DNA of 64,000 nucleotides, taken from positions 1 to 64,000 of the forward strand of contig CANQVC010000003.1 of assembly GCA_947627195.1 (NCBI GenBank), in the 5' to 3' direction. A model generated the notes under the pieces. The model ran no database searches. It was not told the DNA's origin and saw only the letters and a program-made list of their open reading frames with translations. Numbering within the stretch: position 1 is the stretch's first letter; every line of letters starts with the position of its first letter. Source of the stretch: an uncultured Bacilli bacterium (GTDB lineage Bacteria; Bacillota_I; Bacilli_A; ML615J-28; CAG-698). Positions 352-60,455 of this stretch are shown in pieces. The translations under genes were made by a program, and so were the position numbers.

Positions 352-1464
352 TCAAGTGTTATTCGAAATATTTATTAAAAAAGAAAATCTTTTTTCTTTA
401 TTATTTGTTTTAATTAAGACATTTAAAGTAACTTCTTTATTATATTGTTTTACTTTACCATCATTAGATAATATATTAGGATTTGAACTTTCCCATATTA
501 ATGATGTATTATATTTATCTAATTTTAAAGGTAAATTAATATCATTATTTATTTCTTTAGGAATAAAATAAGAATATAGATAAAGATAGCTATTTTCAAT
601 TCTTTCTTCATCATCCATTCCTTCAACAACTACATTATAAAAGTAATCTTTTTTGAATGAATCAACTTCAATTGATATTTTTATTTCCACAGTTGTCGTT
701 ATAATTGGTTTTTTAATTCCTCCACCTGGAAGAATAATTTCAGGATGATTAGATTCCCAAGTTCCTTTAAGATTAGGATATTTTAATAAAAACAATTCTA
801 TTTCCACATCTTTCAAGAAACTTTCCCATCTACCTTTTAAGCTACGAATAACATTAGGGCAATTTTTACCACTAAAATTAAAATGTTGTTTTACTCTTTC
901 AATTCCTAAATGATATTTATTAAGTAGTGTTGCTGTTAATTTAGCAGCATTTTTTAATGTTAAATCATAATTGCCACCTTGTTCAATACAAGTTTCAATA
1001 CCAATACCATTTTTGTTTCCTCCACCAATACATTCAAGTTTACTTGATTTATTAATGTAAGTTTCTCCAAACAATGTACTACCATCACCAGCATGCCATG
1101 CAACTTCATCAGTAGGAATGTGTTGGAAAATTGTATTTTCATCAACAGAAAAATGCCATGAAGCAACTCTTCCATCTAAACTATTTGCTTGATCATGAAT
1201 GTATTTATTTAAACCATATGCATTATGATGTGGGGCAGGCATTCCTGTATCATGAATAACAACATATTGTGGTCCACCATTCATTTTATCACCAATTTTC
1301 CCATTTCCAGGTCGTAATTGATTTACTGAATCAGGATAAATAAAATTTTGAATAATATTTAACGGTTTAAAATAAGGTATATTAAGCCATTTGTCTATTT
1401 TTGTTGGAATTAAATTTGTGAAAAAAGTATCTAGTTCATTTATTGATTTATTTTCTTTATTCAT
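352..1464 (-). CDS. N-acetylmuramoyl-L-alanine amidase with Ig-like tail
   Basis: Predicted zinc amidase that cuts the bond between MurNAc and the L-Ala of the stem peptide. The Amidase_2 (T7 lysozyme-like) fold spans about residues 60-215. Visible zinc ligands are H71 (VVIHDTG), H194 and C202 (HFNFSGKNCP), with the supporting K200; the H-to-C spacing of eight matches T7 lysozyme. Residues about 255-370 look like a degenerate bacterial Ig-like domain (LIWESSNPNI). No signal peptide is seen, so it may act in the cytoplasm on recovered wall fragments, be released by lysis, or be a phage-type endolysin. It is transcribed alone, with its own terminator. The family call is firm; location and role are inferred. 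Confidence 0.85.
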   Translation of the reverse strand: MNKENKSINELDTFFTNLIPTKIDKWLNIPYFKPLNIIQNFIYPDSVNQLRPGNGKIGDKMNGGPQYVVIHDTGMPAPHHNAYGLNKYIHDQANSLDGRVASWHFSVDENTIFQHIPTDEVAWHAGDGSTLFGETYINKSSKLECIGGGNKNGIGIETCIEQGGNYDLTLKNAAKLTATLLNKYHLGIERVKQHFNFSGKNCPNVIRSLKGRWESFLKDVEIELFLLKYPNLKGTWESNHPEIILPGGGIKKPIITTTVEIKISIEVDSFKKDYFYNVVVEGMDDEERIENSYLYLYSYFIPKEINNDINLPLKLDKYNTSLIWESSNPNILSNDGKVKQYNKEVTLNVLIKTNNKEKRFSFLINISNNT

Positions 1465-4343: not shown

Positions 4344-5072
4344 TTATTTTAGGAATAATAGAGACTTATTATATAGTTCTTGTTCTTGTTCATATGTATC
4401 ATACCCATGTCCTGCATGATCTATGATATGTAAATTGGAATTAGCAAATCTTACTACATATTCAACACCAAAAACGAATGGAACATTAGTATCATCTCTT
4501 CCGCAAATAACCATTACGGGATTTTTAAAGTTTTTGGTGTTTTGATACATGTCATATTTTTGAATTGTTTTAACAAAATTTTCACTCATTTCAAATCCTG
4601 AAAAATAAGCATTACCATTTTCTAGTTTTAATGCTTTCTCAAATCTTGCTTTAGCAAGTTCTTTCATATTACCAGCAGGAGACCATAATAAAAGTTTTTT
4701 AATTACTTTATCATCAGCTACAAGACTTGCAACAGCTCCACCTAAACTAAAACCTAATAATTCAACTTCTTTAATTCCTTTAACATTTTTCGCAAATTCA
4801 ATCATTTGTTTAGCATCTTCTAACAAATAATCAAAATCAAAATCATAAAATTCACCATCAGATTCACCATTACCATGATAATCCATACGTAAACTAGCAA
4901 TATTATTTTTACTTAATAATCTTGATAAATTGCGAAAATGACCATTATGTTCCATTCTGTGACCAGTAAATCCATGTAGCATTACAACAATCTTTTCCGC
5001 ATTTTCAGGTAAATCAAGATATCCTCTTAAGATAAGTCCTTTTTTGTTTAATATTTCAACTGCTTCTACCAT
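4344..5072 (-). CDS. alpha/beta hydrolase (carboxylesterase-like)
   Basis: Cytoplasmic serine hydrolase of 242 residues. The triad is visible: nucleophile S109 in GFSLGG, acid D193 or D194 (CGRDDTNVP) and H222 (HAGHGYD). The oxyanion-side HGFTGH motif is at 33-38. The length is typical of the family. It is the last gene of the amino-sugar operon, 12 bases after murQ, so its substrate may be an acylated or lactyl sugar or a peptide ester from wall turnover. That link is inferred only from position. The start has no strong alternative. Confidence 0.8.
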   Translation of the reverse strand: MVEAVEILNKKGLILRGYLDLPENAEKIVVMLHGFTGHRMEHNGHFRNLSRLLSKNNIASLRMDYHGNGESDGEFYDFDFDYLLEDAKQMIEFAKNVKGIKEVELLGFSLGGAVASLVADDKVIKKLLLWSPAGNMKELAKARFEKALKLENGNAYFSGFEMSENFVKTIQKYDMYQNTKNFKNPVMVICGRDDTNVPFVFGVEYVVRFANSNLHIIDHAGHGYDTYEQEQELYNKSLLFLK

Positions 5073-5084
5073 AATAATATCCTT

Positions 5085-6002
5085 CTATTTGTTTTGATTT
5101 GCTTCCTTTAAAGCATTACGTATATGTCCATGATATTTATCTAAAAGTTTAGTTACTTTTTCAACATCATCAATACCACTTAAGATAGAAAATAAAGCTT
5201 TTTTAACACTACCAAATTTATCAATAGCAACTTGAGCTTCTTCATTAGAAACACCTGTAGCTTGAGTAATAATACTTTGCGCTCTTTTAACTAATTTTAA
5301 ATTAGTTGGTTGAACATCAATCATTAAATTTTCATATACTTTTCCCATACGAATCATGGAAGCTGTGGATAACATATTACAAATTAATTTTTGTGCTGTT
5401 CCTGATTTCATTCTTGTGGAACCTGTAACAGGTTCACAACCTGTTATAGCCTCAATTGGATAATCAGCTTTTTTCGCAATCTCACTATTAGGTGAAGTTG
5501 TAATACAACCAGTAATACATCCTATTACTTTCGCATATTCAACAGCACTAACAGCATAAGGAGTTCTTCCACTAGCTGTAATACCAATAACAACATCATT
5601 TTTATTAACATTAATATTTTTAAGATCTTCAATCGCCATTTCTTTAGAATCTTCTGCTCCTTCAACAGCTTTAGTCATTGCTTTCATCCCACCAGCCATT
5701 AAACATTGAACCATTTCATCAGGACAAGAATAAGTTGGACGACATTCAACAGCATCTAAAATACCTATTCTTCCACTAGTTCCCGCACCTACATAAATTA
5801 GTCTACCATCTTTATAAAACGCCTCAACAATCTTATCAACTAAAGCAGCAATTTGTGGCAAAGCTTTTTCCACAGCATATGGTACTGTTTTATCTTCATT
5901 ATTAATAACAGTTACAATTTCTAAAGTAGACATTGTATCGATATTCATTGTGTTTTTATTTCTTTGTTCAGTTCCTATTTTTTTTAAATCTACACTATTC
6001 AT
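5085..6002 (-). CDS. murQ: N-acetylmuramic acid 6-phosphate etherase
   Basis: MurQ removes the D-lactyl ether of MurNAc-6-P to give GlcNAc-6-P, the committed step of MurNAc recycling. The SIS-fold sugar-phosphate site GAGTSGRIG lies at about residues 72-80, followed by the catalytic glutamate of DAVECRPTY and the second acidic cluster VEGAED near 115. A helical C-terminal domain completes the usual 300-residue length. The start is placed at ATG 6002, which overlaps the end of anmK by 8 bases; a TTG nine bases upstream is possible. Neighbouring kinases (BadF-type and AnmK) supply its substrate. Confidence 0.95.
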   Translation of the reverse strand: MNSVDLKKIGTEQRNKNTMNIDTMSTLEIVTVINNEDKTVPYAVEKALPQIAALVDKIVEAFYKDGRLIYVGAGTSGRIGILDAVECRPTYSCPDEMVQCLMAGGMKAMTKAVEGAEDSKEMAIEDLKNINVNKNDVVIGITASGRTPYAVSAVEYAKVIGCITGCITTSPNSEIAKKADYPIEAITGCEPVTGSTRMKSGTAQKLICNMLSTASMIRMGKVYENLMIDVQPTNLKLVKRAQSIITQATGVSNEEAQVAIDKFGSVKKALFSILSGIDDVEKVTKLLDKYHGHIRNALKEANQNK

Positions 6003-7137
6003 TTTGTTCAAATGGATTTAATGTGATGTTACCTAAAATGACATTATCTTTAGCTCCTGTTGCAGATGGAACATTACTTGATTTATGTTGTAATGTTTGA
6101 TAACCAAGAACAACAAAAGCTATAGCTTCTTTGGCATCACTATTAATCCCAAACTCCTCTCCTGTTAATATTTGTAAATGTGTAAGTTCTTTTAATCTTT
6201 TCATAATGTATTTATTATGACTTCCACCACCACTGACAACTACTAAATCAATATCTTTTAAATAAGTTAAATAATGATAAGCAATTGAATATGCGGTAAA
6301 TTCACTAATAGTTGTTATAATATCTTTTTTATCATAATTAATAAATGAACATTTATTAGCAAGTTCCTCCATGAATAAAAAACTATATTGTTCTCTACCT
6401 GTTGATTTAGGTGGTTTTCTTTGAAGGAATGGATCTTTTTTTAATTCATCTAAAATTTCATTTATGATTTTACCATTAGAGGCAATATTTCCATCTTTAT
6501 CATATGGTAAATTAAAATATTTTTGCATAAAATAATCAATCATCATATTACCAACACCTGTATCAAAAGATAAAACATCTTCAATTTTACAGTTTTTCTT
6601 CAAATATGTTACATTACCAATTCCCCCAATATTTTGTAAAGCAATATTTTTTGTATCACTTTTAAACAAATAATATTCCGAAAAAGGAACTAATGGTGCT
6701 CCTTCGCCCCCTGAAGCTATATCCATAGTACGGAAATTGGAAATCGTTGGTATATGAGTATGATAACTAATAACACTAGGTTCACCAATTTGTAAAGTTG
6801 ATGGAACTTTAATTTCAGATTTATTACCTTTAGGATCGTGCCAAATTGTTTGACCATGACTAGCAACAAAAGCAATGTCACTATAATGATATGCTGTTTT
6901 TTCTAATAATGCATCAATTGCTTTTACAAAATAATAACCAAGTTGAAAATTTAAACTACTTATTTCATTTAATTTAGCTGTTTCCATATTAAGATTTCTT
7001 GATAAACATTTTTTAAATGAATCGTCATATGGATAAGTAATAAATTTCTTTAATGTGAACTTTTCATTTATTATTTCCACAAGTGCACAATCAACACCAT
7101 CTAAAGAAGTCCCACTCATCAATCCTATCGCTAGCAT
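5995..7137 (-). CDS. anmK: anhydro-N-acetylmuramic acid kinase
   Basis: AnmK hydrates and phosphorylates 1,6-anhydroMurNAc, the product of lytic transglycosylases, to MurNAc-6-P for MurQ. The N-terminal GLMSGTSLDGVDCALVEI motif is diagnostic, with VASHGQTIWHDP near residue 93-104, NIGGIGNVTYL near 170 and VVSGGGSHN near 298. At 380 residues it is the full family length. AGAGG lies upstream of ATG 7137. It overlaps the upstream kinase gene by 7 bases and murQ by 8, so translation is probably coupled. AnmK implies that this cell meets anhydro-muropeptides, made by itself or by other bacteria. Confidence 0.95.
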   Translation of the reverse strand: MLAIGLMSGTSLDGVDCALVEIINEKFTLKKFITYPYDDSFKKCLSRNLNMETAKLNEISSLNFQLGYYFVKAIDALLEKTAYHYSDIAFVASHGQTIWHDPKGNKSEIKVPSTLQIGEPSVISYHTHIPTISNFRTMDIASGGEGAPLVPFSEYYLFKSDTKNIALQNIGGIGNVTYLKKNCKIEDVLSFDTGVGNMMIDYFMQKYFNLPYDKDGNIASNGKIINEILDELKKDPFLQRKPPKSTGREQYSFLFMEELANKCSFINYDKKDIITTISEFTAYSIAYHYLTYLKDIDLVVVSGGGSHNKYIMKRLKELTHLQILTGEEFGINSDAKEAIAFVVLGYQTLQHKSSNVPSATGAKDNVILGNITLNPFEQNE

Positions 7138-8042
7138 AATAGACCTCTTCTTAATCCCATATAATATGCCCCATATATAGGATCTTCATCGCCTTGAACA
7201 ACTAAAGGGTTAAAACCATTTTGTTTTAAATGTTCTAAAAGACTATCTTGAACTTCTTGAACATGACTAATAAAACCCCCTCTAAATCCTATGACAAATG
7301 ATGATAAATTAAGCATACGAATACAATTTAAAACATCATTTCCTAAAAATATACCATTTTGTTTTAACCACTCTTTAGCTTCTAAATCATTAACTGCTTC
7401 TTTACTAAAGAATGAAGCATATGATGCAACATCTTTTTTAGTATTTTGATACATTAATACTTTAAATTCTTGGATATCTTTATAATTAAGTTCTTGCATA
7501 AACTTTTTACCAAGAGGTGTTATTTCTTTAGTTTGTTCATATTTATCTATTATTTTAATAATATAATCTTTAACACAAGAATATGCTGAACCTTTTTCAT
7601 TTAATAAATGTCCCCAACCACCAATTAATGATGTTGTTTCATTTTTTATTCCAAGAATAGAACTACCTGTACCAGCTAAGACCATGACACCTTCTTGATA
7701 TTTATCTTGGACTATCGAATATAAAGCAATTACAGCATCATTCTCCATAATAATAGGTACTTGATATATATCTTTAAATTCTTGTTCAATTTCTTGCTTG
7801 TTTTTAACAACACCCAATCCAGAAATACCCATTGATATTCCCATTAATTGATACTGTTCTTTTTTGATTTCTTCTAAAACAATATTAATACCTTGTTTAA
7901 TGTTTTTAAATGCTTCATCTTTCATGGCAGCAGGACTACCTGAACCAACAATTGCTTCTTTAAGAATTGATCTATTTTTATCAATAATCGCAACTTTAGT
8001 CTTTGTTCCGCCAGCATCAACAACAATTAAAACTTTTTTCAC
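7131..8042 (-). CDS. BadF/BadG-type amino-sugar kinase (GlcNAc/MurNAc kinase)
   Basis: ASKHA-fold kinase of 303 residues. Phosphate-1 motif VDAGGTKTKVAIID is at residues 8-21, the catalytic-region MENDAVIALY is near 99, and phosphate-2 LAGTGSSILGI near 122. The family includes N-acetylglucosamine kinase and Clostridium MurK, which phosphorylates both MurNAc and GlcNAc. Lying between a NagZ-MupG gene and anmK-murQ, it most likely makes MurNAc-6-P and/or GlcNAc-6-P from free sugars released in the cytoplasm. It starts with GTG inside the stop codon of the upstream gene (GTGA overlap), with a GAGGTG ribosome site. Exact specificity cannot be read from the sequence. Confidence 0.85.
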   Translation of the reverse strand: MKKVLIVVDAGGTKTKVAIIDKNRSILKEAIVGSGSPAAMKDEAFKNIKQGINIVLEEIKKEQYQLMGISMGISGLGVVKNKQEIEQEFKDIYQVPIIMENDAVIALYSIVQDKYQEGVMVLAGTGSSILGIKNETTSLIGGWGHLLNEKGSAYSCVKDYIIKIIDKYEQTKEITPLGKKFMQELNYKDIQEFKVLMYQNTKKDVASYASFFSKEAVNDLEAKEWLKQNGIFLGNDVLNCIRMLNLSSFVIGFRGGFISHVQEVQDSLLEHLKQNGFNPLVVQGDEDPIYGAYYMGLRRGLLC

Positions 8043-10696
8043 TCTTCTTCACCTCGAATTACAAATGAAAACTTTTCTCCAGGTTCGATATGTTCTAAAA
8101 GGAATAAACTAGCAAGACATCTTGCAACAATATTAACACGTTCATCACTATCTAAAGTTTTAGTCATTACACAAACTTCACCTTGATAACGTAAAAACTT
8201 TTCATTATCAATTGTAACCATTTTTTCCAATCTTTTAATATTATTCCAAGGGATAATACCATTACATCTAACTGACGAACGAACAAAATATTGATTATTA
8301 TCTAATCTATTACGATGAACTTGTTTTAATAAAGCAAGTTCATTTTCATGAATTCCTTTTTTTACAAGAATTGGTAAATGGACAATTGATGTATCAAAAC
8401 ATTTAGCTTCTTTTAATTCTTCTTCACTAGCAAAAGCATCACCAAAACAAACTCCATCACTATGTACTTTCACAATTTCACTTAAAATAGCTTGTAAATC
8501 AGCATTTCTTTGTTCTTCAATCGTTGGTAAGCCTTCATATAGGGGTGGTCTTTTCCCTGTATGGGAAGGAATATAACAAATAACTTTTAAACCAAATTGG
8601 TGAAAGTAATCATTTTTGTTTAAAACATCTTCATATGATAAGCCTGTATATGGTTTAGGATAAAAATTATGACTAATTCTTATTCGAGAAAAATCGGCAT
8701 GAAATGCTTTTAAATATTCTAATGTACCTTTAGGTGTACATGAAGCATTTAACTCTAATAAATAAGGTTTATTAAGCATTTTTAAAATGTCTTCTTTTGT
8801 AAAGCCATAATCTAGTCTTAATGCATAGATATCTTCTAAAGGTTTATCTTTTTCTAATTCATTTAAACGATTTTTATTAACATCTAAAATTATTTTTAGA
8901 TTTTTTTTCTTGGCTTCATCTAAAACAACTTTTAATTCATCTTGAAATTTATTATTCATTTCTGGCATATGAGTCGAAATAAAGACAGTATCAATATTAC
9001 ATTTTTGTAAAGTTTCTAAATATTTTAAATTATCTTTTAATGAATAATCATCTAAACCAAGATATATAGAAGCAGATACTTCTAAAGTTTTGGCATCATG
9101 TATAGGAAATTTTCCTTTAGGTAATATTTCACCTTTTAAATATTTAATGACTGTTGAAACAGAATTTGGGGTATATTCATATAAACAGCATAAATTTTCA
9201 ATATCATCTAATACTAAATAATCATAAGGATTTCTTGTTGAAAGGACATATAATTCTTTCGCAATCTTATTAGCTTGTTTAATAAATCTTGCTTGATTAA
9301 GAAATGTATTAGCATTATATGAACAAATAACTACTTGATCATATTGAGGAATAATATCTAAAATATGATGATAATCTTCACTATTTGACTCCATTGCTAT
9401 AGCATCCATAGTAGGAATTTCTTTATGTACCATATCAACAATACTACGACTGTTTAATTCATCTTCCGCAATAGTAGCAGCAAAAGGATTAGCAGCAACA
9501 ACTAATACTTTACCTTTATTTTGGAATATTTTTCCTTTTAATAAAGTTAATGATTGGTCTACTAATTTACTAGCGACATTCTTATTATTCTCATTTTCAA
9601 AATACTTTATTAAAGCATTTGTTTGGTAAGTTTTAATATTATTTAATTGTTTATCAAAATATGAATAGAAATTTTTTGTAATTGCTTCTTTTGTTTTTTC
9701 TTTATATTTTAAAATTCTTTCAACTTTTTCATCAATTACATCAATTGGTATTTCATTGTTTAGGACAGCTTCTTCTAACAATTTTAAAGCTCCAATTTGT
9801 TTTTCTAATGTATGAGAAATACAAGCAATATCTAATCCTGCTTTAATTCCCATTACTGCACCTTTCTCAGAAGTGAACTTTGTATCGATTGCTTTCATTT
9901 GCATGCAATCACTGACAATTAAACCTTTAAAATTGAATTTATGGCGTAAAATATCTGTTAGAATAGTTTTTGATAAAGTAGTCGGGTAATCTTTATCTAT
10001 TTTATCAAAAATTATATGAGCGCTCATAATAGCATCAACACCAGATTCAATAGCTTTTTTAAATGGCAATAATTCAATTTCTTCTAATCGTTTCATGTCA
10101 TGAGAAACAGTTGGTAAACCTAAATGGCTGTCAACATTAGTGTCACCATGTCCTGGAAAATGTTTTGCAGTTGCAATAACATTTTCACTTTGTAAACCAC
10201 GAATATAAGAAATACCATATTCACTAACAACATTAGGATCATCAGAATAACTTCTAACACCAATAACAGGATTAGCTGGATTATTATTGACATCTAATGA
10301 TGGTGCAAGATTCATATTAATTCCTAAATGAGTTAATTCTTCACCCATTCCTTTACCAACAATTTCAGCATTTTGTTTATTATCAGTGGCTGTTAAAGTC
10401 ATATTTCCTGGCCAAAATGTTGCACCATCCATAATTCTTGTAACCATTCCACCTTCTTGATCAATGGAAATAAAAGGAATTGTTTTAGTATTTTTAATTA
10501 CTTCTTGATGAATTTTTAAATTTAATTCAATTAATTGTTTTAAGGAAGAAATATTTCTAGTAAATAAAATAATATTTGCTACTTTATATTCTTCAATTAA
10601 AATACGTAAATGTTCATCATATTCATAACCATCAAATCCAGCAATAATTAATTGTCCCAATTTTTCTTTTAGTGTCATTTCTTTTATTGTTCTCAT
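8039..10696 (-). CDS. NagZ (GH3) fused to MupG-type 6-phospho-N-acetylmuramidase
   Basis: Two-enzyme protein of 885 residues without a signal peptide. Residues 1 to about 330 form a GH3 barrel: KHFPGHGDTNVDSH at 178-191 holds the NagZ Asp-His acid/base dyad (D189, H191), and D263 (VSDCMQMKA) is the nucleophile. Residues about 370-535 form the second GH3 domain. From about residue 540 to the end the sequence follows the DUF871/MupG family: SASIYLGLD start, LRLDYGFT, LELNAS, SHNFYPKPYTGLS, PLYEGLPT, VHRNR, VTIDNEKFLRYQGE. NagZ frees GlcNAc from wall oligomers; MupG (known from Staphylococcus aureus) splits MurNAc-6-P-GlcNAc. The open frame is continuous across the junction. The operon setting supports a joint recycling role. 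Confidence 0.9.
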   Translation of the reverse strand: MRTIKEMTLKEKLGQLIIAGFDGYEYDEHLRILIEEYKVANIILFTRNISSLKQLIELNLKIHQEVIKNTKTIPFISIDQEGGMVTRIMDGATFWPGNMTLTATDNKQNAEIVGKGMGEELTHLGINMNLAPSLDVNNNPANPVIGVRSYSDDPNVVSEYGISYIRGLQSENVIATAKHFPGHGDTNVDSHLGLPTVSHDMKRLEEIELLPFKKAIESGVDAIMSAHIIFDKIDKDYPTTLSKTILTDILRHKFNFKGLIVSDCMQMKAIDTKFTSEKGAVMGIKAGLDIACISHTLEKQIGALKLLEEAVLNNEIPIDVIDEKVERILKYKEKTKEAITKNFYSYFDKQLNNIKTYQTNALIKYFENENNKNVASKLVDQSLTLLKGKIFQNKGKVLVVAANPFAATIAEDELNSRSIVDMVHKEIPTMDAIAMESNSEDYHHILDIIPQYDQVVICSYNANTFLNQARFIKQANKIAKELYVLSTRNPYDYLVLDDIENLCCLYEYTPNSVSTVIKYLKGEILPKGKFPIHDAKTLEVSASIYLGLDDYSLKDNLKYLETLQKCNIDTVFISTHMPEMNNKFQDELKVVLDEAKKKNLKIILDVNKNRLNELEKDKPLEDIYALRLDYGFTKEDILKMLNKPYLLELNASCTPKGTLEYLKAFHADFSRIRISHNFYPKPYTGLSYEDVLNKNDYFHQFGLKVICYIPSHTGKRPPLYEGLPTIEEQRNADLQAILSEIVKVHSDGVCFGDAFASEEELKEAKCFDTSIVHLPILVKKGIHENELALLKQVHRNRLDNNQYFVRSSVRCNGIIPWNNIKRLEKMVTIDNEKFLRYQGEVCVMTKTLDSDERVNIVARCLASLFLLEHIEPGEKFSFVIRGEEE

Positions 10697-10708: not shown

Positions 10709-11845
10709 TTAATATAACAAATATTTCTTTCTTGTCATTTTAAATTTTTCTGTATCTTCATCTATAATTTCAAATTGTTTTTCTAATGGATAAAGATCAT
10801 CCATAATATATTGACATCCTGTATTAAATTGTAACATGCAATGATTTCCTTCTTTATATGGTGGAAGAATTTTAAAATCGTTTGGATACATATCACGTAT
10901 AACTTTCAACATTGCCCATCCAGTATGAACAGGTAAAAAGCCATCACGATCTAATACATGTACTTGAACACCACCACATACTACTTTTTCATGTTTAGAA
11001 AATGTTGGGGTAAAATATTGTCTACGAAAATAAACACTAGGTAAACATAAACTATTTAATTTATCAGCTAAAGATTTAGGATCAATATATGGGGCACCAA
11101 CAAATTCAAATGGAGCAGTTGTTCCTCTTCCTTCACTGACATTTGTGCCTTCAAAAATACATGTAGCATTATAAACAATAGCAGTATTAACAGATGGAAA
11201 ATTTGGTGAAGGCATTATCCATAATAAACCAGTTTCATCATAATATTTTTTACGATCATAACCTTCCATTTTTATTAAATGTAATTTACAGCCAATGCCA
11301 AATTCTTCATTAAACATTTTAGCTAATTCAGCAATTGTCATACCATGACGTTGAACTATTGGATAATATCCAACAAATGAACGATAATTAATATCTAATA
11401 TATTTCCTTCAACATCTACACCATTAATTGGATTTGGTCGATCAAATACCACAAATTCTTTATTATGCTCTTTACAAGCCATCATGGCATATGCCATTGT
11501 ATAAATATATGTATAAAATCTAGATCCACCATCTTGAATATCAATACATAATACATCAATTGTATCTAACATTTCTTTTGTTGGACGTTTATCTTTTGTA
11601 TATAGACTATATACAATAATACCTGTTTCTTCATCAATATATGAATCGAAACGAACACCAGCTTGCATATGTCCTCTTACGCCATGTTCTGGTGAAAACA
11701 AACAAACTAAATTAACTTTTTCTTTTAAAACATCAATTGAAGAGCGAAAAGAACTATCTACACCAGTAGGATTTGTAATAAGTCCTACTCTTTTTCCTTT
11801 GAAAAAATCTAAATGTTGGTCAATACAATCAATTCCTAATTTCAT
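10709..11845 (-). CDS. namZ: NamZ-type exo-beta-N-acetylmuramidase (DUF1343)
   Basis: DUF1343/GH171 protein of 378 residues, homologous in pattern to Bacillus subtilis NamZ (YbbC), which releases MurNAc from the non-reducing end of wall fragments. Characteristic stretches are RVGLITNPTGVD at 19-30, LFSPEHGVRG, DIQDGGSRFYTYIYT, FDRPNPINGVDVEGN and WIMPSPNFPS. B. subtilis NamZ is secreted, whereas this protein begins directly with the catalytic fold and shows no signal peptide, so it should work in the cytoplasm beside the NagZ-MupG fusion. Its ATG overlaps the stop of the yesL-like gene (ATGA) with GGAG upstream. Alternating NagZ and NamZ action would strip a glycan chain from one end. Confidence 0.9.
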   Translation of the reverse strand: MKLGIDCIDQHLDFFKGKRVGLITNPTGVDSSFRSSIDVLKEKVNLVCLFSPEHGVRGHMQAGVRFDSYIDEETGIIVYSLYTKDKRPTKEMLDTIDVLCIDIQDGGSRFYTYIYTMAYAMMACKEHNKEFVVFDRPNPINGVDVEGNILDINYRSFVGYYPIVQRHGMTIAELAKMFNEEFGIGCKLHLIKMEGYDRKKYYDETGLLWIMPSPNFPSVNTAIVYNATCIFEGTNVSEGRGTTAPFEFVGAPYIDPKSLADKLNSLCLPSVYFRRQYFTPTFSKHEKVVCGGVQVHVLDRDGFLPVHTGWAMLKVIRDMYPNDFKILPPYKEGNHCMLQFNTGCQYIMDDLYPLEKQFEIIDEDTEKFKMTRKKYLLY

Positions 11846-12588
11846 TTTTTATCTCCTTTATTTGTTTTTGTATCATCTTCATAATTTTCTCTAACATCTT
11901 CATCTTTATTATCTAATTCATCTTTAGAAGAAAAACCATTATCTTGTAAATATGTATAAATTCTTCGCGAAATTAAATAAATGAGAAATAATGGAACACT
12001 AATACCAAAGAAAATCCAAATTGGTAAAAGTGGTAAATATATTATTAACATTAAAAAAGCCACAATAACTACTACTTCTAAAAGAGTTGAGGGAATATAT
12101 TTAAAAGCCATAAAGAATGATAATCTTATTTTTTGCATGAATGTTGCTCTAAAATATACGGTAACAATTATTGTTTGAATACCAGCCATTAATATAACAA
12201 AAGCAAAACCCATCATTAAAAATACACATATAAATGCAATTGTATACCAAGTACTATCTCCTGGATATAAATCCTGAGATGTTTCACCTAAAACACCATC
12301 ATACCATAAATATGCATATCCTGAAATGCCTATCAGAGCAACTAATAAAATTCCAAAGCCAATTGTTTCTTTAAAAAGTAAGGCAAAATTACGAAAATAT
12401 GGTTTGATTACTTCTCTTGTATATTCATCTTTAGCATCTTTAATTGATTTAAAACAAGCCGATATTGATGTAAAGATAGTGATGATACCAAGTGATGTAA
12501 TTAATGTCAATACATTTAAGACAAATAATCGCCATAACCAATCAAAGAAAGTAAATAATTTACCATTACCAATATTTTCTTCTTTCAT
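11842..12588 (-). CDS. YesL-like (DUF624) membrane protein
   Basis: Membrane protein of 248 residues with about five to six hydrophobic segments (near 18-40, 76-96, 112-142, 165-205) and a charged, Asp/Glu/Lys-rich C-terminal tail from about 215. The opening FTFFDWLWRLFVLNVLTLI is typical of DUF624, a family found with carbohydrate ABC transporters (for example yesL next to yesOPQ). It heads the wall-sugar operon, and a solute-binding protein gene lies just upstream, so it may assist uptake of muro-oligosaccharides. Its molecular role is not established. Confidence 0.75.
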   Translation of the reverse strand: MKEENIGNGKLFTFFDWLWRLFVLNVLTLITSLGIITIFTSISACFKSIKDAKDEYTREVIKPYFRNFALLFKETIGFGILLVALIGISGYAYLWYDGVLGETSQDLYPGDSTWYTIAFICVFLMMGFAFVILMAGIQTIIVTVYFRATFMQKIRLSFFMAFKYIPSTLLEVVVIVAFLMLIIYLPLLPIWIFFGISVPLFLIYLISRRIYTYLQDNGFSSKDELDNKDEDVRENYEDDTKTNKGDKK

Positions 12589-12712: not shown

Positions 12713-14506
12713 TTAGCTATAAGCAGCTGCTAATAAGTTTTGAATTCTATCAGCTTCACCAGCTATAGCATCAGCCCATGAGCTTTTTTTACCTGTCATA
12801 TATCCTCTAATATTTTCTACAAATGTACCAGAATATGTACTTACAACAGGGTTATCTGAAGTTGATAATGGTTCAAAGAATGAAATATCTTTTAATCTTG
12901 ATTTAACGTAAACCATGGCATCAACACTTGCTGGAGAATCAGTGAATTTTTGAACAGTTCTTAGTCTTGCAGCTTCTTCATCATATCCACTATCTGGACC
13001 TTTATAAAATTCTCTAGTCTTCTTGTAATACATCATAACTGCTAGGTAAATATTTTCAGGATTAACTTCGTTTCCATATTTTGCATATTCGTTTTGTCTA
13101 CCAACAGGCATTACCCATGTAGCAGTTCCACCAAGACCAACATGATAATCTTCTTTCTTACCAGTTAATGATGGGAATGGAACATATCCATATTGAGTTG
13201 TACCTTCACCCCATTGATTATTAGTCCATCTACCAGCATCTCTTACGAACCATAAGTCACCAGTATTGAATAATGCTGTTTGATTATTCCATGATTCAAC
13301 AGAACCATCAACTGCTGATAAACTACCATCAACTAATTGAGCATCATATAAGTTTTTCATTAAATCTGCTGCTTTAGATTCAGCTTCTGCTTCTAGATAA
13401 ACTTTCATTGCATATGGATCACAAATGTTAGTTCCACTAGCATTTACTAATCCAACCCAGTAATAAACAACATGACCAGCTACTGCATGGTATTCTTTTT
13501 GTTGTGCATCTGGTAATGAATTCATAGCAGCTTGTGCTTTTGTACAATATGTTAAGAAATCATCATAACTCCATTCATCATCTAAGAATGCTTGTGCAGG
13601 TTCTTTTAATGATGGGTCAATTGCATTTAAAGATTTCCATAAGTTAACATTGTAATACATAACATTGTAAATATCTGCATCACCATTTGTTACAGAATAT
13701 AATTTACCTTGATATGTTCCTGATTTTTTATAAACAGGGTCTAAAATTTCTGTATTATCATCATATGTTCCATATTTTTGATAGAAATCAGATACATCGA
13801 TTAAGCAGTTACCAGCAACGAATGTTGGAATTTGACTGTCTGGAACAGTAAGGAAATCAAAATCAGATATATTTTTTCTTCCTTGGTCAAGAATATAATT
13901 CCATCTTGCAGGTCCCCAATCGGCATTTGAAGGATATGCTACAGCTTCAAGTGAACAGTTGAATGTTTGTTCAACCCAGTTCCAAGCTGCAACTCTTGCA
14001 TCTTTATCATCACCAGCATATGTTAATGAACCAGGAATTGGATTACCTTGATCATCTACATAAACAAATGTTGGGTCAGTTTCATGTAATGCATGTGATG
14101 CATTAGCAATTTTAATTGTATAACCACCTAGGTCTGGATATGATCCTACAGCACCAGCTGTATTTACACTAAATCTAACAACTGCTGTATTTCCATCTTT
14201 ATCTTCAGCTCCGATTACAACAATACCTTTACCAGTTGCTACACCTGTAACAAGTCCATTTTGGTCAACTGTTGCAGCTTCTGGTTTATCAGATGTCCAT
14301 GTAACTGAAACTTCTTTTAATGTTTTAGCATCTACAGCTTTTAATTGTACTTGTGCATTAACAGCAATAGAGCTAACAGTAAGAGTTTTGCCATTTGATT
14401 GAATTAGAATTTTTCCAGTGCTACCATTAGTTTGTTCAGTATTACCACAACCAACTAAAACGAAAGCAAAGAAAAGCATCAAAAACATAGCCATAAACTT
14501 TTTCAT
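12713..14506 (-). CDS. sugar ABC transporter solute-binding lipoprotein with N-terminal Ig-like domain
   Basis: Lipoprotein of 597 residues with lipobox LVGC (Cys20). About residues 30-118 form a Big_2 domain (VSVTWTSDKPEAATVD, then NGLVTGVATGKG), which is unusual at the N-terminus of a binding protein. From about 125 onward it has the family 1 extracellular binding-protein pattern (AAWNWVEQTFNC, FDFLTVPDSQIPTF, DEWSYDDFLTYCTKAQ, NTGDLWFVRDAG). AGGAGG precedes the ATG. No permease is adjacent, so membrane partners must lie elsewhere. Its place upstream of the muro-sugar operon suggests a wall-derived or amino-sugar oligosaccharide ligand, which is inference. The cre-like operator at its start predicts catabolite repression. 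Confidence 0.8.
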   Translation of the reverse strand: MKKFMAMFLMLFFAFVLVGCGNTEQTNGSTGKILIQSNGKTLTVSSIAVNAQVQLKAVDAKTLKEVSVTWTSDKPEAATVDQNGLVTGVATGKGIVVIGAEDKDGNTAVVRFSVNTAGAVGSYPDLGGYTIKIANASHALHETDPTFVYVDDQGNPIPGSLTYAGDDKDARVAAWNWVEQTFNCSLEAVAYPSNADWGPARWNYILDQGRKNISDFDFLTVPDSQIPTFVAGNCLIDVSDFYQKYGTYDDNTEILDPVYKKSGTYQGKLYSVTNGDADIYNVMYYNVNLWKSLNAIDPSLKEPAQAFLDDEWSYDDFLTYCTKAQAAMNSLPDAQQKEYHAVAGHVVYYWVGLVNASGTNICDPYAMKVYLEAEAESKAADLMKNLYDAQLVDGSLSAVDGSVESWNNQTALFNTGDLWFVRDAGRWTNNQWGEGTTQYGYVPFPSLTGKKEDYHVGLGGTATWVMPVGRQNEYAKYGNEVNPENIYLAVMMYYKKTREFYKGPDSGYDEEAARLRTVQKFTDSPASVDAMVYVKSRLKDISFFEPLSTSDNPVVSTYSGTFVENIRGYMTGKKSSWADAIAGEADRIQNLLAAAYS

Positions 14507-14614: not shown

Positions 14615-15622
14615 TTATTTTTTTGTAATTATCTTATTAAGGTATTTATAAGATTTCCATACTTCAAAATAAAATTTTTGATAAAACTCCATCAAACCAG
14701 TCCAATCGATCATCACTTCAGTGCATCCATCATGTCGCAATGAAGATATGGAAAATTGTAATAAATCATTTCCAAATCCATGTTTACGATATTTTTGATC
14801 AACACCAAGTGGACCGATTCCACCTAACGATTTAAACCTTTCCTTCCACATCATATTATATGCAATTATTTTAGTTTTTGCCCTATTTACACGGGAAAAA
14901 GCAATGATTGGATAATTTAAATCATTAGGATCACGAATTAATAAATAGTCGTCACCATTTCCACCTAAGGTGAAATAATCTTTAACTTCATATGCCCATC
15001 GATTCCAATGATTATTTAACATCATTTTTATCATTTCTTCTTGATCATCTATTGTCGCTTTAACATAATCATAATTTTTATTTATAATATTATTTTCAAT
15101 ATTATTAATGTTATTAATATTGATATTAATATTATTATTATCATTAAATCTACAAATCAAATCGTGAGTATAACGAGACCCTTGATACCCTCTTTTTTCC
15201 AACCAGACATCTGTTAGATTATCGAAGTCAGTTGCAACACCTGGAAAAAAATTACGAATATCTTTACCAATGTGAATTTGCATTTCATCAAATGAACTTT
15301 CATTTAATATATTATGACAAATTTCTTCAGAAATATTAAATAATTTAGAACCTATTCCTTGTTTTCGATATTTCTTTGCTACATAAAATAATGATATAAA
15401 AGCCATTTTTTTATAATCAGGTATTAAATCATCATCAAAGAATTTTAAAATGATAAAGCCAACTAAATTATTATTAGAATCATATGCACATATTATTCTT
15501 TTTAATTTATAACAATCAATAGATTGATAAAACCAATCTTGGGGAATGGGATAAATCATTCCCATTTCCTGATTCCATAAAGATAAAATTTTTTCTTCTT
15601 TTTCTACTTCTTTAAAATACAT
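14615..15622 (-). CDS. tandem GNAT N-acetyltransferase
   Basis: Protein of 335 residues with two GNAT halves. The first (about 1-155) carries the acetyl-CoA loop RKQGIGSKLF; the second (about 190-335) carries RKHGFGNDLL and ends in FYQKFYFEVW. They are joined by an Asn/Ile-only tract (about residues 160-185) encoded by AAT/ATT repeats. ATG 15622 is preferred over the TTG one codon upstream. No clear ribosome site is visible, so expression may depend on read-through from nagB 40 bases upstream. Position after nagZ2-nagB suggests an amino-sugar or wall-peptide substrate, but the acceptor is unknown. Confidence 0.75.
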   Translation of the reverse strand: MYFKEVEKEEKILSLWNQEMGMIYPIPQDWFYQSIDCYKLKRIICAYDSNNNLVGFIILKFFDDDLIPDYKKMAFISLFYVAKKYRKQGIGSKLFNISEEICHNILNESSFDEMQIHIGKDIRNFFPGVATDFDNLTDVWLEKRGYQGSRYTHDLICRFNDNNNINININNINNIENNIINKNYDYVKATIDDQEEMIKMMLNNHWNRWAYEVKDYFTLGGNGDDYLLIRDPNDLNYPIIAFSRVNRAKTKIIAYNMMWKERFKSLGGIGPLGVDQKYRKHGFGNDLLQFSISSLRHDGCTEVMIDWTGLMEFYQKFYFEVWKSYKYLNKIITKK

Positions 15623-15633
15623 CAATTTAAATT

Positions 15634-15672
15634 ATTTTACTTTAGTATATTACTTAAGTATATTACTTTAGT
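15634..15672. repeat. 13-bp tandem repeat, three copies, across the nagB stop codon
   Basis: Three units read on the minus strand as ACTAAAGTAATAT, ACTTAAGTAATAT and ACTAAAGTAAAAT. The first unit includes the last codons and stop of nagB. It may arise from slippage; it also lengthens the nagB-GNAT gap. Confidence 0.8.
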
Positions 15673-16397
15673 AATGAACATGCTTCTTCATCAGCTACAA
15701 CAGTAACAACACCAGGATGTTTCTTTAATGCTGATGCTGGAAATTCTTCTGTAACTGGTCCATTAACTAATTGATAAATTGCTTCAGCTTTGTTTTTACC
15801 ACTTGCTACTAATAATACTGATTTAGCATTCATTATATTTTTAATACCCATTGTAATTGCATGTGTTGGAACTTGATTAATATCATTATCAAAGAAACGT
15901 GCATTATCTTTTCTTGTCTTTTCAGTTAATGTCACAACTAATGTTTCACTTTCAAATGAAGTTCCTGGTTCATTGAAACCAATATGTCCATTAGCACCAA
16001 TTCCTAATAATTGTAAATCAACAGTTACTTTATTTAAAGCATCACTATATTCTTGACAATTTTTTTGTAAATCTTTACCTAATGATGAAGGTAAATGAAC
16101 ATTTTCTTCTTCAATATCAACATGATTGAATAAATTTGTATGCATGAATGAATAATAACTTTCAGGATGTTCTCTTGGTAAATCACAATATTCATCCAAA
16201 TTGTATGTTTTCACATTCTTAAAGGAAACTTCACCTTTTTTATAGGCATCAATTAAATATTGATACAATCCTACTGGACTACTTCCTGTTGCTAAACCTA
16301 ATACACAATTGGGTTTTTCTTTGATTTGATGAAGCATGATTTCTCCTGCAACTTTACTTAATTCTTGATAATCTTTAACTTTGATGAATTTAATCAT
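15663..16397 (-). CDS. nagB: glucosamine-6-phosphate deaminase
   Basis: NagB converts glucosamine-6-P to fructose-6-P and ammonia, feeding amino sugars into glycolysis. At 244 residues it is the short Gram-positive form. Motifs: LGLATGSSPVGLY near residues 33-45, NLDEYCDLP near 67, LGIGANGHIGFNEPG near 131-145. The longer allosteric tail of enteric NagB is absent. It starts one base after nagZ2 ends, with GGAG upstream, so the two are an operon. It is the outlet for GlcNAc-6-P made by MurQ in the neighbouring operon, but NagA deacetylase is not in this window. Confidence 0.96.
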   Translation of the reverse strand: MIKFIKVKDYQELSKVAGEIMLHQIKEKPNCVLGLATGSSPVGLYQYLIDAYKKGEVSFKNVKTYNLDEYCDLPREHPESYYSFMHTNLFNHVDIEEENVHLPSSLGKDLQKNCQEYSDALNKVTVDLQLLGIGANGHIGFNEPGTSFESETLVVTLTEKTRKDNARFFDNDINQVPTHAITMGIKNIMNAKSVLLVASGKNKAEAIYQLVNGPVTEEFPASALKKHPGVVTVVADEEACSLLK

Positions 16398-16398
16398 T

Positions 16399-17985
16399 TT
16401 ACTTCTCCTCTTTTTTGTTATTCATCTTAATTGGTAACTTGCCATAAAAAACATTAGATTGTAAACAATTTGCTAAAGCTTTTAAAGATTCTTTTGTACA
16501 ATCATATGTACAAATATAATCTTTACAATTAGGTAATAAATTAATATCATAAGGTGATCTTAAACTTATAACAATTAATTTATCTTTGTCTAATGCTTCA
16601 TACAACTTTGTTTGTATATCATCTTTTTTAAGGTTGTAAGTTACTAACAATATTTTATCATATTTTTGCTCTTTTTGCACTATATTTTCAAAATTTTTTA
16701 AGTCTTGATTAATAATTATTTCATCATAATTTAAATATTGATTTAAAGTTTCACATTTATTATTTGCATTATCAACTAATGATGCTAAGTGAATTTCTGG
16801 AAATAAAATTAAAACTTTATCATTTTTCTTTAATGGTAATAAAGAATTGTCCACAACATGAGTAATACTTTTATTTGTTAATTCTATACTTAATTTTTCA
16901 TTATTAATATTATTAATGATATTAATATTATTATTATTTAGATATTTTTGTTTTAATTTTAATATTTTTGTTACTGATTCATTAATTCTTGAAATGGAAA
17001 TTTTTTTATCTTTAACTAAAGTTTGAAAAGCTTTAATAATTTCTAATTGTTCATTAATATCAGCTTTCCCACAAAACATTAGTATATCATTTCCTGCCAT
17101 TATACCATGATAAACAATTTCAGGAATGGAATATTTTTGCCATATAGCAGCCATTGTTAATGAATCAGTAATAATAAGTCCTTTAAAATTCATCTTTTCT
17201 TTTAATAATTTAGTAATTATTTGATAAGATAATGATGCTGGTAAATTTTCATCAATTGAAGAATACAAAATATGAGAAATCATAATACCATCAATATTTT
17301 CTTTTATACTTTTTTCAAATGGTATAAATTCACATTTTTTTAAATCTTCGATTGTTTTAGAAACAATTGGTAAGCCTAAATGACTATCAACATTTGTATC
17401 ACCATGTCCAGGAAAATGTTTAAGTGTTGGTAATATTCCGCCATCTTGTAAAGCTTTTGCGGAAAGTGTACAATATTTTGCCACAACTTCAGGATCATCT
17501 GCATAACTTCTAGAATTAATAACTGGATTTAAAGGATTATTATTAACATCAGCAACAGGAGCAAAATCTAAATCAAATCCTAATTTTTTTAAATCCATTC
17601 CTAATAATTTATTAACTAAATATATCTTATTAGGATCATCATAACAACTTGCACTTAAAGCCATTGCCCCTGGTACATATGTTATCCCACTTTCGATTCT
17701 TCTAACCATTCCTCCTTCTTGATCTAAACCAATCCATAAAGGATAAGTGGCATGACTTCTAATTGTGTCATTTAATAATTTAACTTGTTCATTGTTTTCA
17801 ATATTCCTTGCAAAATAAATAATTGAACCTATTTTTTCTTTTTCAATTAATATTTCTAATTGTTCATTCCAAGTTGTACCATGAAAAGCAAAGCATAACA
17901 TTTGGGCAATTTTTTCTTCTAATGTCATTTTATCTAGCAATTCATTTATATTATTAATATTATTAATGTTGTTAATATTGTTCAT
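16399..17985 (-). CDS. nagZ: second NagZ-like beta-N-acetylglucosaminidase (GH3)
   Basis: Cytoplasmic GH3 enzyme of 528 residues without signal peptide. KHFPGHGDTNVDSH at 189-202 provides the acid/base dyad D200/H202, and D274 (ITDSLTM) is the nucleophile. A shorter second GH3-like domain follows (about 370-520), but there is no MupG part, unlike the homologue at 8039-10696. The first 14 residues are an Asn/Ile repeat (NNI units), and a similar tract interrupts the linker at about 345-362. GGAGG lies 18 bases upstream of ATG 17985, unusually far, perhaps because the repeat tract has changed the start. It is cotranscribed with nagB. Confidence 0.88.
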   Translation of the reverse strand: MNNINNINNINNINELLDKMTLEEKIAQMLCFAFHGTTWNEQLEILIEKEKIGSIIYFARNIENNEQVKLLNDTIRSHATYPLWIGLDQEGGMVRRIESGITYVPGAMALSASCYDDPNKIYLVNKLLGMDLKKLGFDLDFAPVADVNNNPLNPVINSRSYADDPEVVAKYCTLSAKALQDGGILPTLKHFPGHGDTNVDSHLGLPIVSKTIEDLKKCEFIPFEKSIKENIDGIMISHILYSSIDENLPASLSYQIITKLLKEKMNFKGLIITDSLTMAAIWQKYSIPEIVYHGIMAGNDILMFCGKADINEQLEIIKAFQTLVKDKKISISRINESVTKILKLKQKYLNNNNINIINNINNEKLSIELTNKSITHVVDNSLLPLKKNDKVLILFPEIHLASLVDNANNKCETLNQYLNYDEIIINQDLKNFENIVQKEQKYDKILLVTYNLKKDDIQTKLYEALDKDKLIVISLRSPYDINLLPNCKDYICTYDCTKESLKALANCLQSNVFYGKLPIKMNNKKEEK

Positions 17986-41552: not shown

Positions 41553-42878
41553 TTACATACCTGTAATACCAGTACGTTCAATAGATTCAACAAATTGTCT
41601 TTGAACAAAGAAATAAGCAATTATTAATGGTAGCATCATTAGTAATGCAGCTGTATTTAAGATTAATCCATAGAACATTCTATCTTCAGTAATCTTTCCA
41701 AGTTCTTGTGACAAAGATCTAAATGATGTTTCAAATAATGAATTGAATGATTCAGCACTACTTGCTAATGCTGTAGTTAATACTGGTAAAACTTTTTTAT
41801 CACGGAAGCCGAATAATGTTGCAAAATAGTAATCATTATATTGCCATACAAATGAGAACAAACCAACAGTAATGATAGCTCCACGAGCATTAGGAAGCAT
41901 TACACTCCAGAATGTTCTAATTACACCAGCACCATCAATTTCCGCAGATTCTTCAAGTTCAATTGGAACACCACGGAAGAATTGTCTAAACAAATATATG
42001 AAAATAGCTGAACGTAATCCCATACCAAATGCTGACATTATAAATATAGCAAACATATTATTCATTAATTGAATTCCGAAGAATGGTAGTTCAACATAAA
42101 GAATTTTTCTGGCAATATTTAAAGCTTCATTTGGAACTATTAAAGTAATAATTACTGTATAGAAGAAAATATTACTAAAATATTTAACTTTTAAACGAGC
42201 AAATGCATATCCTGCAACAGCTGTAGCCATAATTTGAATAAACATTGTTACCGTTGATAAGAAAACAGTATTAAGAAATACGTTATTTGATTCAAGCGTT
42301 AAATATTTATAGGCGATTTGAATATTTAAAACGCTCCATTCGGCTGGTATCCAAACTACTTCAGGTCTAGTAATATCTGTAGGATAACGACAAGCATATG
42401 ATATTTTTTCTAGAATTGGTAAGATAATGACAAAACATAAACCAATTAGAATAAATGTTCTAAAAATGGCACCTAAGATTTGTAAAGTTTTACGACTTCT
42501 AACCATTCTTAATGTTGGATCATGCCAATCAGATTTTGCTTTCGCAATTCTGTATTTAATTTCTTGACCAACTGTCATATTATCTAATGCTAATTCAACC
42601 GTTTCTTGTGTTTCTTCTTTTCTTGTTAAAGCACTATCTTCATCTTCATCTAAGATTTGTTGCAAAGCACGTTCAGCACAAAGTTTAGTAATATATGCAT
42701 CACGTTCAGCTTTCGCAAGTTCTTCTTTTTCTTGTGGTGTTAATTCATCAGATGTAGTAGCTTCATTTACATCATTTGCATCTTCAAGATTTTCTTCATT
42801 AGAAACTTCTTGTTCTTGAATATTTTCTTGTTCAGTTATAGCGATTTTTTCTTTTTCTTCTTTATTTTTATTCGTCAT
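41553..42878 (-). CDS. carbohydrate ABC permease (MalG type) with acidic N-terminal extension
   Basis: Membrane permease of 441 residues. The permease core (about 140-441) has six helices and the EAA loop EESAEIDGAGVIRTFW, which contacts the ATPase. The first ~130 residues are an added cytoplasmic region, very rich in Glu/Asp (EKIAITEQENIQEQEVSNEE), which standard MalG-like proteins lack. It overlaps the MalF-type gene by 11 bases, so they act as a pair. No ATPase is encoded in the operon; a shared MsmX-like ATPase elsewhere is likely. Confidence 0.88.
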   Translation of the reverse strand: MTNKNKEEKEKIAITEQENIQEQEVSNEENLEDANDVNEATTSDELTPQEKEELAKAERDAYITKLCAERALQQILDEDEDSALTRKEETQETVELALDNMTVGQEIKYRIAKAKSDWHDPTLRMVRSRKTLQILGAIFRTFILIGLCFVIILPILEKISYACRYPTDITRPEVVWIPAEWSVLNIQIAYKYLTLESNNVFLNTVFLSTVTMFIQIMATAVAGYAFARLKVKYFSNIFFYTVIITLIVPNEALNIARKILYVELPFFGIQLMNNMFAIFIMSAFGMGLRSAIFIYLFRQFFRGVPIELEESAEIDGAGVIRTFWSVMLPNARGAIITVGLFSFVWQYNDYYFATLFGFRDKKVLPVLTTALASSAESFNSLFETSFRSLSQELGKITEDRMFYGLILNTAALLMMLPLIIAYFFVQRQFVESIERTGITGM

Positions 42879-44028
42879 AATAGAACACCACCTTTGACAA
42901 TACTCCTAATACAATAGCTAATAATATTCCAATAACAACTGTAAAAATTAAGGAAATTGATGCACCAATACCATAATTTGATAATACATTTTTGCCATCA
43001 ATTAATAATCCTAAATCTTCACTTGTAACTTCTTGAGTACCAGGTTTAGAGAATTTATCTAAAATTGTAATCATTGGTGAACGCAAGAAGGAATCGACGA
43101 CTGTATACACAGCTGCCGCGAGCAGCATTGGCGAAACCATCGGGAAAGTAATTTTCCAGAACATTTCATATTGGGTTGCCCCTTCCATTTTTGCCGCTTC
43201 ATACAAATGTCTCGGAACAGACTGAATAGCTGATAAGAATATTAATATTTGAATACCTGAATATGCAATAATATCATAAATCTTTTGCGATGCATTTCCT
43301 AAAAAGTCGACGAGCCATTTCGGGAAATTAGCATTCGTTAAAAAGTCTTTAAAACTAAACATTTGTTCAAACAAATCTTTAGTAGCGCCACTTGTCGACT
43401 CATCTAAAACTGTATATGCTTTGGTTGCAACGTCAATGGCTTGAGAGTTAAAGATTACAGGAACAAAGAATACAGCACGAACAAAGGCACGTCCTTTAAA
43501 TTTAGAATTCAAAACTACAGCCATGATTAAACTAAAGATCAATATAATTGGAATATCAGTTAATATTGAAATAATTGATTGTGTTAAGAATTCTAAGAAT
43601 GTTAATTCTGATTCACCTCTAGGAGTAGCTGTTGCTTCGGTGAATACATAAATATAATTCTTAATACCAACAAAACTAACTTTAAGTCCAACACTTCCTC
43701 CTGATTCAATAAAACCTAAACTAAACCAAATAGTATAGATAAATGGAATTAAGAAGAAATAAACAAATCCAATTAACAATGGAAGAACAAAAATAATTCC
43801 CCAAATAGTTTTACGTGTATGGTTTGTAAGTTCGCCAAACTTTCTTGGAATGAAAGTTACAACTGGTCCTACTTTCTTACCAAATTTGGATTCGGCAATT
43901 TTATGAAACAAATTTTTAATAGCATCCATGCATATATGATAAACATGTGCTATCTTACTGCCAATAAACGAAAAGAAACTTTTTATTTTATTTTTAATAT
44001 TGGCAAAGAAACTTTTAATTTTTTTCAT
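42868..44028 (-). CDS. carbohydrate ABC permease (MalF type)
   Basis: Permease of 386 residues. A basic, amphipathic N-terminal region (about 1-65, many Lys) precedes six or more transmembrane helices. The EAA loop is YEAAKMEGATQYEMFWKITFP near 270-290. A periplasmic-side loop between helices 1 and 2 is long. The gene starts at the stop of the DUF5696-like gene (1-base overlap). A segment around 43081-43220 is clearly richer in GC than its surroundings, which is odd inside a single gene. Confidence 0.88.
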   Translation of the reverse strand: MKKIKSFFANIKNKIKSFFSFIGSKIAHVYHICMDAIKNLFHKIAESKFGKKVGPVVTFIPRKFGELTNHTRKTIWGIIFVLPLLIGFVYFFLIPFIYTIWFSLGFIESGGSVGLKVSFVGIKNYIYVFTEATATPRGESELTFLEFLTQSIISILTDIPIILIFSLIMAVVLNSKFKGRAFVRAVFFVPVIFNSQAIDVATKAYTVLDESTSGATKDLFEQMFSFKDFLTNANFPKWLVDFLGNASQKIYDIIAYSGIQILIFLSAIQSVPRHLYEAAKMEGATQYEMFWKITFPMVSPMLLAAAVYTVVDSFLRSPMITILDKFSKPGTQEVTSEDLGLLIDGKNVLSNYGIGASISLIFTVVIGILLAIVLGVLSKVVFYYDE

Positions 44029-47456: not shown

Positions 47457-47469
47457 TATCTCAACCTCC

Positions 47470-50015: not shown

Positions 50016-50025
50016 TTGTTTCCTC

Positions 50026-51994: not shown

Positions 51995-52004
51995 TATTTT
52001 CCTC

Positions 52005-60454: not shown

Positions 60455-60455
60455 A

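Follow-up and report, generated by a model that had tools for sequence, protein, structure and literature searches.

Two enzymes that cut cell-wall sugars, NagZ and MupG, are separate proteins in other bacteria; in the locus described here they are one protein. To our knowledge, MupG has been characterised only behind PTS uptake. In Staphylococcus aureus, where MupG is a 6-phospho-N-acetylmuramidase of family GH170, MurNAc-6P-GlcNAc is made by MurP during PTS uptake (PMC6262408). GH170 is broader than MupG: ChbE acts on diacetylchitobiose phosphate (PMC12791066). The preliminary description of this DNA knew of no fusion of the two enzymes, and a literature search (coverage incomplete) likewise found no earlier report of one; the NagZ and MupG families are known, and their union and its PTS-free setting appear to be undescribed. 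The source bacterium is related to the wall-less mollicutes, and peptidoglycan has been lost several times in these orders (PMC10868615).

The nagZ-mupG fusion gene lies on the minus strand at positions 8039-10696 of the window (the whole stretch of DNA that was analysed, 64 000 nucleotides) and is a single uninterrupted ORF of 885 aa. Pfam profiles matched Glyco_hydro_3 at residues 8-330 (E 8.9e-93, far over the curated cut-off), MupG_N at residues 543-764 (E 1e-52; 179.5 bits, cut-off 24) and MupG_C at residues 773-879 (E 4.4e-21; 75.7 bits, cut-off 24.4). The single 885-residue NagZ-MupG chain first read from the letters is borne out by the ORF and by all three profiles, and the profile search proposed as a check on its C-terminal part gave MupG matches far over the cut-offs. 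The NagZ half (9101..10696, minus strand; residues 1-532) comprises the catalytic barrel and the full C-terminal domain. A linker of nine residues (9067..9100, minus strand) leads from P531, the last NagZ proline, to the [GS]AS start of MupG, and the MupG half (8042..9082, minus strand) covers residues ca. 539/540-885, starting at about window position 9080. The NagZ half is complete, since its PDB match to 6k5j (535 aa) extends to residue 532; this end and the start of MupG_N at residue 543 agree with the earlier placing of MupG from about residue 540 and of the junction at about 9080. The AlphaFold2 model of the fusion protein had a mean pLDDT of 89.9 and a pTM of 0.68. Foldseek searches with the predicted structure returned 6k5j (TM 0.90 by target) and 4gyj, which is B. 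subtilis NagZ with GlcNAc-MurNAc, for the NagZ half, and 2p0o (TM 0.74) and 1x7f (TM 0.80) for the MupG half, which matched the latter two in the PDB sequence comparison as well. No NCBIfam model matched MupG, and a fold search against BFVD gave no useful match. The fusion joins a complete two-domain NagZ to a complete MupG unit via a short linker.

The catalytic residues earlier assigned to the NagZ half were correctly placed: D189 and H191 lie within KHFPGHGDTNVDSH and D263 within VSDCM, the motifs align with those of B. subtilis NagZ/YbbD and of 6k5j, and all three residues are invariant in 14 fusion orthologues. The Asp-His dyad is carried on the KHFPGHGDT..DSH loop, and D263 is the nucleophile. 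The NCBIfam model PRK05337 (beta-N-acetylhexosaminidase) scored 205.8 bits, slightly under its cut-off of 207. A second, unfused NagZ paralogue of 528 aa (16399..17985, minus strand; Pfam GH3, E 3e-80) adjoins the gene for NagB, glucosamine-6P deaminase (15663..16397, minus strand; TIGR00502, over cut-off), and sits in a clade apart from fused NagZ in the NagZ tree.

The same fusion was found at 16 further loci, giving a total of at least 17: 14 long ones (including the studied protein), L054, and the contig-end-cut L078 and G022/L053. In a set of 100 relatives, MupG_C-containing frames of ca. 853-895 aa were found repeatedly within the same family and in a single sister-family genome (G034). 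Counted from the last NagZ proline to the residue before the AS/VS of the first MupG strand, the linker is exactly nine residues long in all 17 fusions. Its constancy despite an identity of only ca. 44-54 % between the fusion orthologues and the studied protein would fit a joint that arose once and is under constraint; the fusion is old. Outside this order, no MupG frame longer than ca. 455 aa was seen among the matches listed for two widely overlapping samples, 395 genomes from the class and 392 from the phylum, and no fusion was found on plasmids, phages or viral contigs. A joining of two genes by an assembly or sequencing error near 9080, named earlier as a point to be checked, would agree with relative G012, which has two overlapping genes at the same place; its probability is negligible, however, and it is refuted by the 16 other loci, which come from many projects and share the junction and the linker length.

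G099, a genome from a different family within the class, has separate consecutive genes for NamZ, NagZ (524 aa), MupG (354 aa), the kinase, AnmK and MurQ, and this is probably the ancestral gene order. The two genes of G012 overlap by 4 bases (ATGA), with ca. 10 bases fewer at the junction; its nagZ and mupG are both sister to the corresponding halves of the G010 fusion in the NagZ and GH170 trees. Since both halves share this sister pair, they were co-inherited; the G012 split looks like a later fission of the fusion. G005 retains MupG only, and in the sister family MupG with no NagZ is the usual state at this operon place.

Conserved residues in the MupG half include D629, E727, R730, D753 and E840. 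Besides members of the class, the GH170 alignment comprised S. aureus MupG, taken from a plasmid record that also carries murQ and an EIIC gene, an L. paracasei MupG linked to MurQ, and a Priestia GH170 protein linked to a cellobiose PTS. All fusions keep the family-wide invariant residues (15/15), as do S. aureus MupG and 2p0o. It is very improbable that the MupG half has lost its enzymatic function and serves NagZ in a structural or regulatory capacity. The fungal NagZ-GNAT fusion RmNag (4zm6, PMC4680927) illustrates that NagZ-type GH3 proteins can bear extra domains, but the invariant residues are intact, and related unfused MupG genes persist at that operon place in the absence of NagZ (G005, f2); the MupG unit is therefore selected by itself.

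The fusion carries MupG-type letters at S574, K681, R716, D753, R822 and D830, where the PTS/kinase-linked (ChbE-like) GH170 proteins have, respectively, C; H, Q or E; a residue other than R; N; I, L, M, F or Q; and varied residues. At every position that separates MurQ/MurP-linked MupG from the ChbE-like group, the MupG letter is found in every fusion, and a ChbE-like function of the MupG half is disfavoured by these diagnostic residues. The GH170 tree, which is unrooted and has a long S. aureus branch, falls into three clades: MurQ/MurP-linked MupG; genes linked to a PTS, frequently accompanied by a BadF-type kinase and ChbE-like by setting; and the fusions with their unfused kin from PTS-free AnmK operons. 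Taken with the MurQ linkage, the diagnostic residues support, but do not prove, MurNAc-6P chemistry for the MupG half. Elsewhere in GH170, small genomes of family f5 (e.g., G113, G151, G180) have up to four MupG-type genes each, with in-frame TGA, and probably belong to mollicutes that use code 4; the question of GH170 in cells without a wall reaches beyond the present fusion. Borreliella/Borrelia plasmids carry GH170 proteins, many of them annotated as alpha3-beta1 integrin-binding protein, which reflects either moonlighting or a doubtful name.

A profile search of the studied genome (98 % complete; controls normal) found neither PTS_EIIC nor Enzyme I, and one or the other is present in very few relatives. 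Of the association with a MurP-type PTS and MurQ that is found for MupG proper, only MurQ is present. MurNAc-6P-GlcNAc therefore cannot come from MurP, and the earlier proposal that one protein handles both GlcNAc-MurNAc and MurNAc-6P-GlcNAc ends is not supported as stated, the MurP source being absent. Without a PTS, three possibilities are left: an intracellular kinase makes the phospho-disaccharide, the cell imports it, or the substrate is something else.

If the enzyme is bifunctional and the phospho-substrate comes from food, the MupG half would salvage MurNAc-6P left at teichoic acid or polysaccharide attachment sites of Gram-positive peptidoglycan. Wall polymers are linked to MurNAc O6 by a phosphodiester, the studied genome has no PTS, and wall-less relatives must use foreign wall, all of which favours this source; no transporter for phosphorylated sugars was identified, however, and the phosphodiester would have to be cleaved with the phosphate staying on MurNAc. 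We judge a dietary origin to be improbable. A change of substrate in the MupG half after PTS loss, for example to an unphosphorylated muramyl or other 6-modified disaccharide, has a somewhat better claim and is still unlikely; the protein would then be NagZ plus a new GH170 activity. The separate third clade of the fusions, the precedent of another GH170 function in ChbE on diacetylchitobiose phosphate (PMC12791066), and the coverage of MurNAc-GlcNAc by NamZ would agree with such a change, but it is opposed by the MupG letter at all separating positions in every fusion and by the retention of MurQ in the operon.

For synthesis inside the cell, the candidate is the BadF/BcrAD-type sugar kinase (NagK/MurK-like; 7131..8042, minus strand; BcrAD_BadFG, E 1e-20; NagK_SO3507, E 4e-19, under cut-off), whose gene shares 4 bases with the fusion gene. 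It is missing from the operon in the fusion genomes G018, G025 and G034. BadF-type kinases also adjoin GH170 genes in PTS-linked loci, where they may be simple GlcNAc kinases, and gene linkage is for this reason indecisive on whether the kinase replaces the PTS. Channelling, suggested earlier, is unsupported in the strict sense because neither half acts directly on what the other releases; the kinase step, carried out by a third enzyme, must act between them.

The remaining genes of the core block, all on the minus strand, encode AnmK, an anhydro-MurNAc kinase (5995..7137; PRK09585, 457.8 bits, over cut-off), MurQ, a MurNAc-6P etherase (5085..6011; TIGR00274, 375.6 bits, over cut-off), and, as the last gene, an alpha/beta hydrolase that is kept in relatives (4344..5072). 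On the other side of the fusion gene lie NamZ, an exo-beta-N-acetylmuramidase (10709..11845, minus strand; Pfam NamZ_N/NamZ_C) that has no apparent N-terminal signal peptide and is therefore probably cytosolic; a membrane protein with a fixed operon place (11842..12588, minus strand; YesL/DUF624-like by size and position, no Pfam match); and a lipoprotein with a Big_2 domain, possibly solute-binding (12713..14506, minus strand; lipobox LVGC). The operon of NamZ, kinase, AnmK and MurQ is conserved among relatives, and its earlier assignment was confirmed by Pfam and NCBIfam profiles. The lipoprotein gene, which lies upstream of the core block, is flanked by a promoter-like site (14598-14570) and a terminator-like hairpin (12701-12674). 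The next unit could begin from a perfect sigma-70-like site at 4259-4231. Overall, promoter-like matches are no commoner than in shuffles. An Amidase_2 protein of the secreted type (N-acetylmuramoyl-L-alanine amidase) with an aBig_2 domain is encoded at 352..1464 (minus strand).

With two proteins bearing a transpeptidase domain and six matches to Mur ligases, the studied genome is probably able to make peptidoglycan. No transpeptidase match was obtained in the fusion carriers G004, G006, G007, G009, G010, G014, G019, G020 and G023 and the truncated G022; these ten gave at most three Mur-ligase matches each, weak and of FolC-like size where listed. Since some ten carriers are without wall-synthesis genes, the shared role of the fusion is catabolism of external peptidoglycan. 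Recycling of the cell's own wall as the sole role was rejected: PBPs and wall Mur ligases are missing from these carriers, though the studied genome has them. The amidase of the secreted type (352-1464), an LD-carboxypeptidase (59504-60463), part of an M19 dipeptidase, a GH20 enzyme and an ABC transporter cluster in the window agree with use of external peptidoglycan.

Several neighbouring features were recorded besides. The transport cluster (41553-57009) comprises two ABC permease pairs, a DUF5696 protein, a Yip1 protein, a 1060-aa SBP-domain protein and GH20; in G099 (L128), DUF5696 and ABC permease genes also precede the unfused operon. The same contig beyond the window (L126) encodes two more proteins with aBig_2, a GH18 and another Amidase_2 (7687-9291, 14768-16831), so that this is a broader region for degradation of peptidoglycan and amino sugars. 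At contig positions 62249-64453 (window part 62249-64000), a DAP/ornithine-type decarboxylase and an M19 membrane dipeptidase form a second enzyme fusion of 734 aa; M19 frames of 731-762 aa occur in ca. 12 genomes of the same family, and other genomes have M19 alone (ca. 300 aa).

On balance, the protein is probably a bifunctional cytosolic exo-glycosidase of a PTS-free operon for scavenging peptidoglycan sugars, with a kinase step between its halves. Peptidoglycan fragments would be imported without a PTS, probably by ABC transport. Judged by family and residues, the NagZ half would remove non-reducing GlcNAc from GlcNAc-MurNAc, GlcNAc-anhydroMurNAc and longer fragments; a cytosolic kinase, most likely the product of the overlapping BadF-type gene, would phosphorylate O6 of the MurNAc end that this exposes; and the MupG half, to go by its residues and the MurQ linkage, would then release MurNAc-6P from the next GlcNAc. 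MurQ would convert MurNAc-6P into GlcNAc-6P, AnmK would add anhydroMurNAc to the same pool, with NagB nearby, and NamZ would provide a parallel route on unphosphorylated ends. The fusion would fix the two enzymes at 1:1 amounts, and one protein would trim alternating GlcNAc and MurNAc ends.

The fusion and its age, the intact residues, the operon, the PTS absence and the presence in relatives without wall-synthesis genes are directly established. The scavenging model is favoured by the complete domains, the residues kept in all fusions, the 17 constant linkers, the co-inherited halves, the conserved operon, the MupG-type residues, the lack of EIIC and Enzyme I, the wall-less carriers, and the permease and DUF5696 genes ahead of the unfused version. 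Against it, the kinase may act on monosaccharides only, or may be replaced, as its absence from the operon in three fusion genomes would allow; MupG could be redundant beside the NamZ of its own operon; and substrate drift is possible, as the MupG halves form their own clade. The fuller account, in which the cytosolic kinase phosphorylates the MurNAc end of imported oligosaccharides, NagZ-MupG trims them alternately and wall-less bacteria eat the walls of others, is put forward tentatively. A conserved fusion in PTS-free genomes, several of them without wall-synthesis genes, implies that MurNAc-6P glycosides can be made in a second way, and it suggests that a pathway dedicated to foreign peptidoglycan is kept in mollicute-like bacteria.

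With S. aureus MupG (PMC6262408), the fusion has in common MupG_N and MupG_C, the invariant and clade-diagnostic residues, and MurQ in the operon; there, MupG is a separate protein beside the MurP PTS and MurR, whereas here it is fused to NagZ, in an AnmK/NamZ/kinase operon without a PTS, and in its own tree clade. ChbE of Lacticaseibacillus paracasei (PMC12791066) belongs to the same GH170 family, but by description lies in a cellobiose-type PTS locus; such loci form another clade with other diagnostic residues, the comparison being made via the loci and not the ChbE sequence. The two-domain GH3 architecture, the Asp-His dyad and the Asp nucleophile are shared with B. subtilis NagZ (YbbD) and with the Paenibacillus GH3 beta-N-acetylglucosaminidase 6k5j, the structural match to the latter showing 36 % identity over the entire chain. 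Whereas YbbD is exported as a lipoprotein, the fusion has no apparent signal peptide, and only the fusion protein bears MupG C-terminally. Fungal RmNag (4zm6, PMC4680927) is also a NagZ-type GH3 with a second enzyme at its C terminus; in RmNag this part is a GNAT acetyltransferase, whereas in the fusion it is a glycosidase-family domain.
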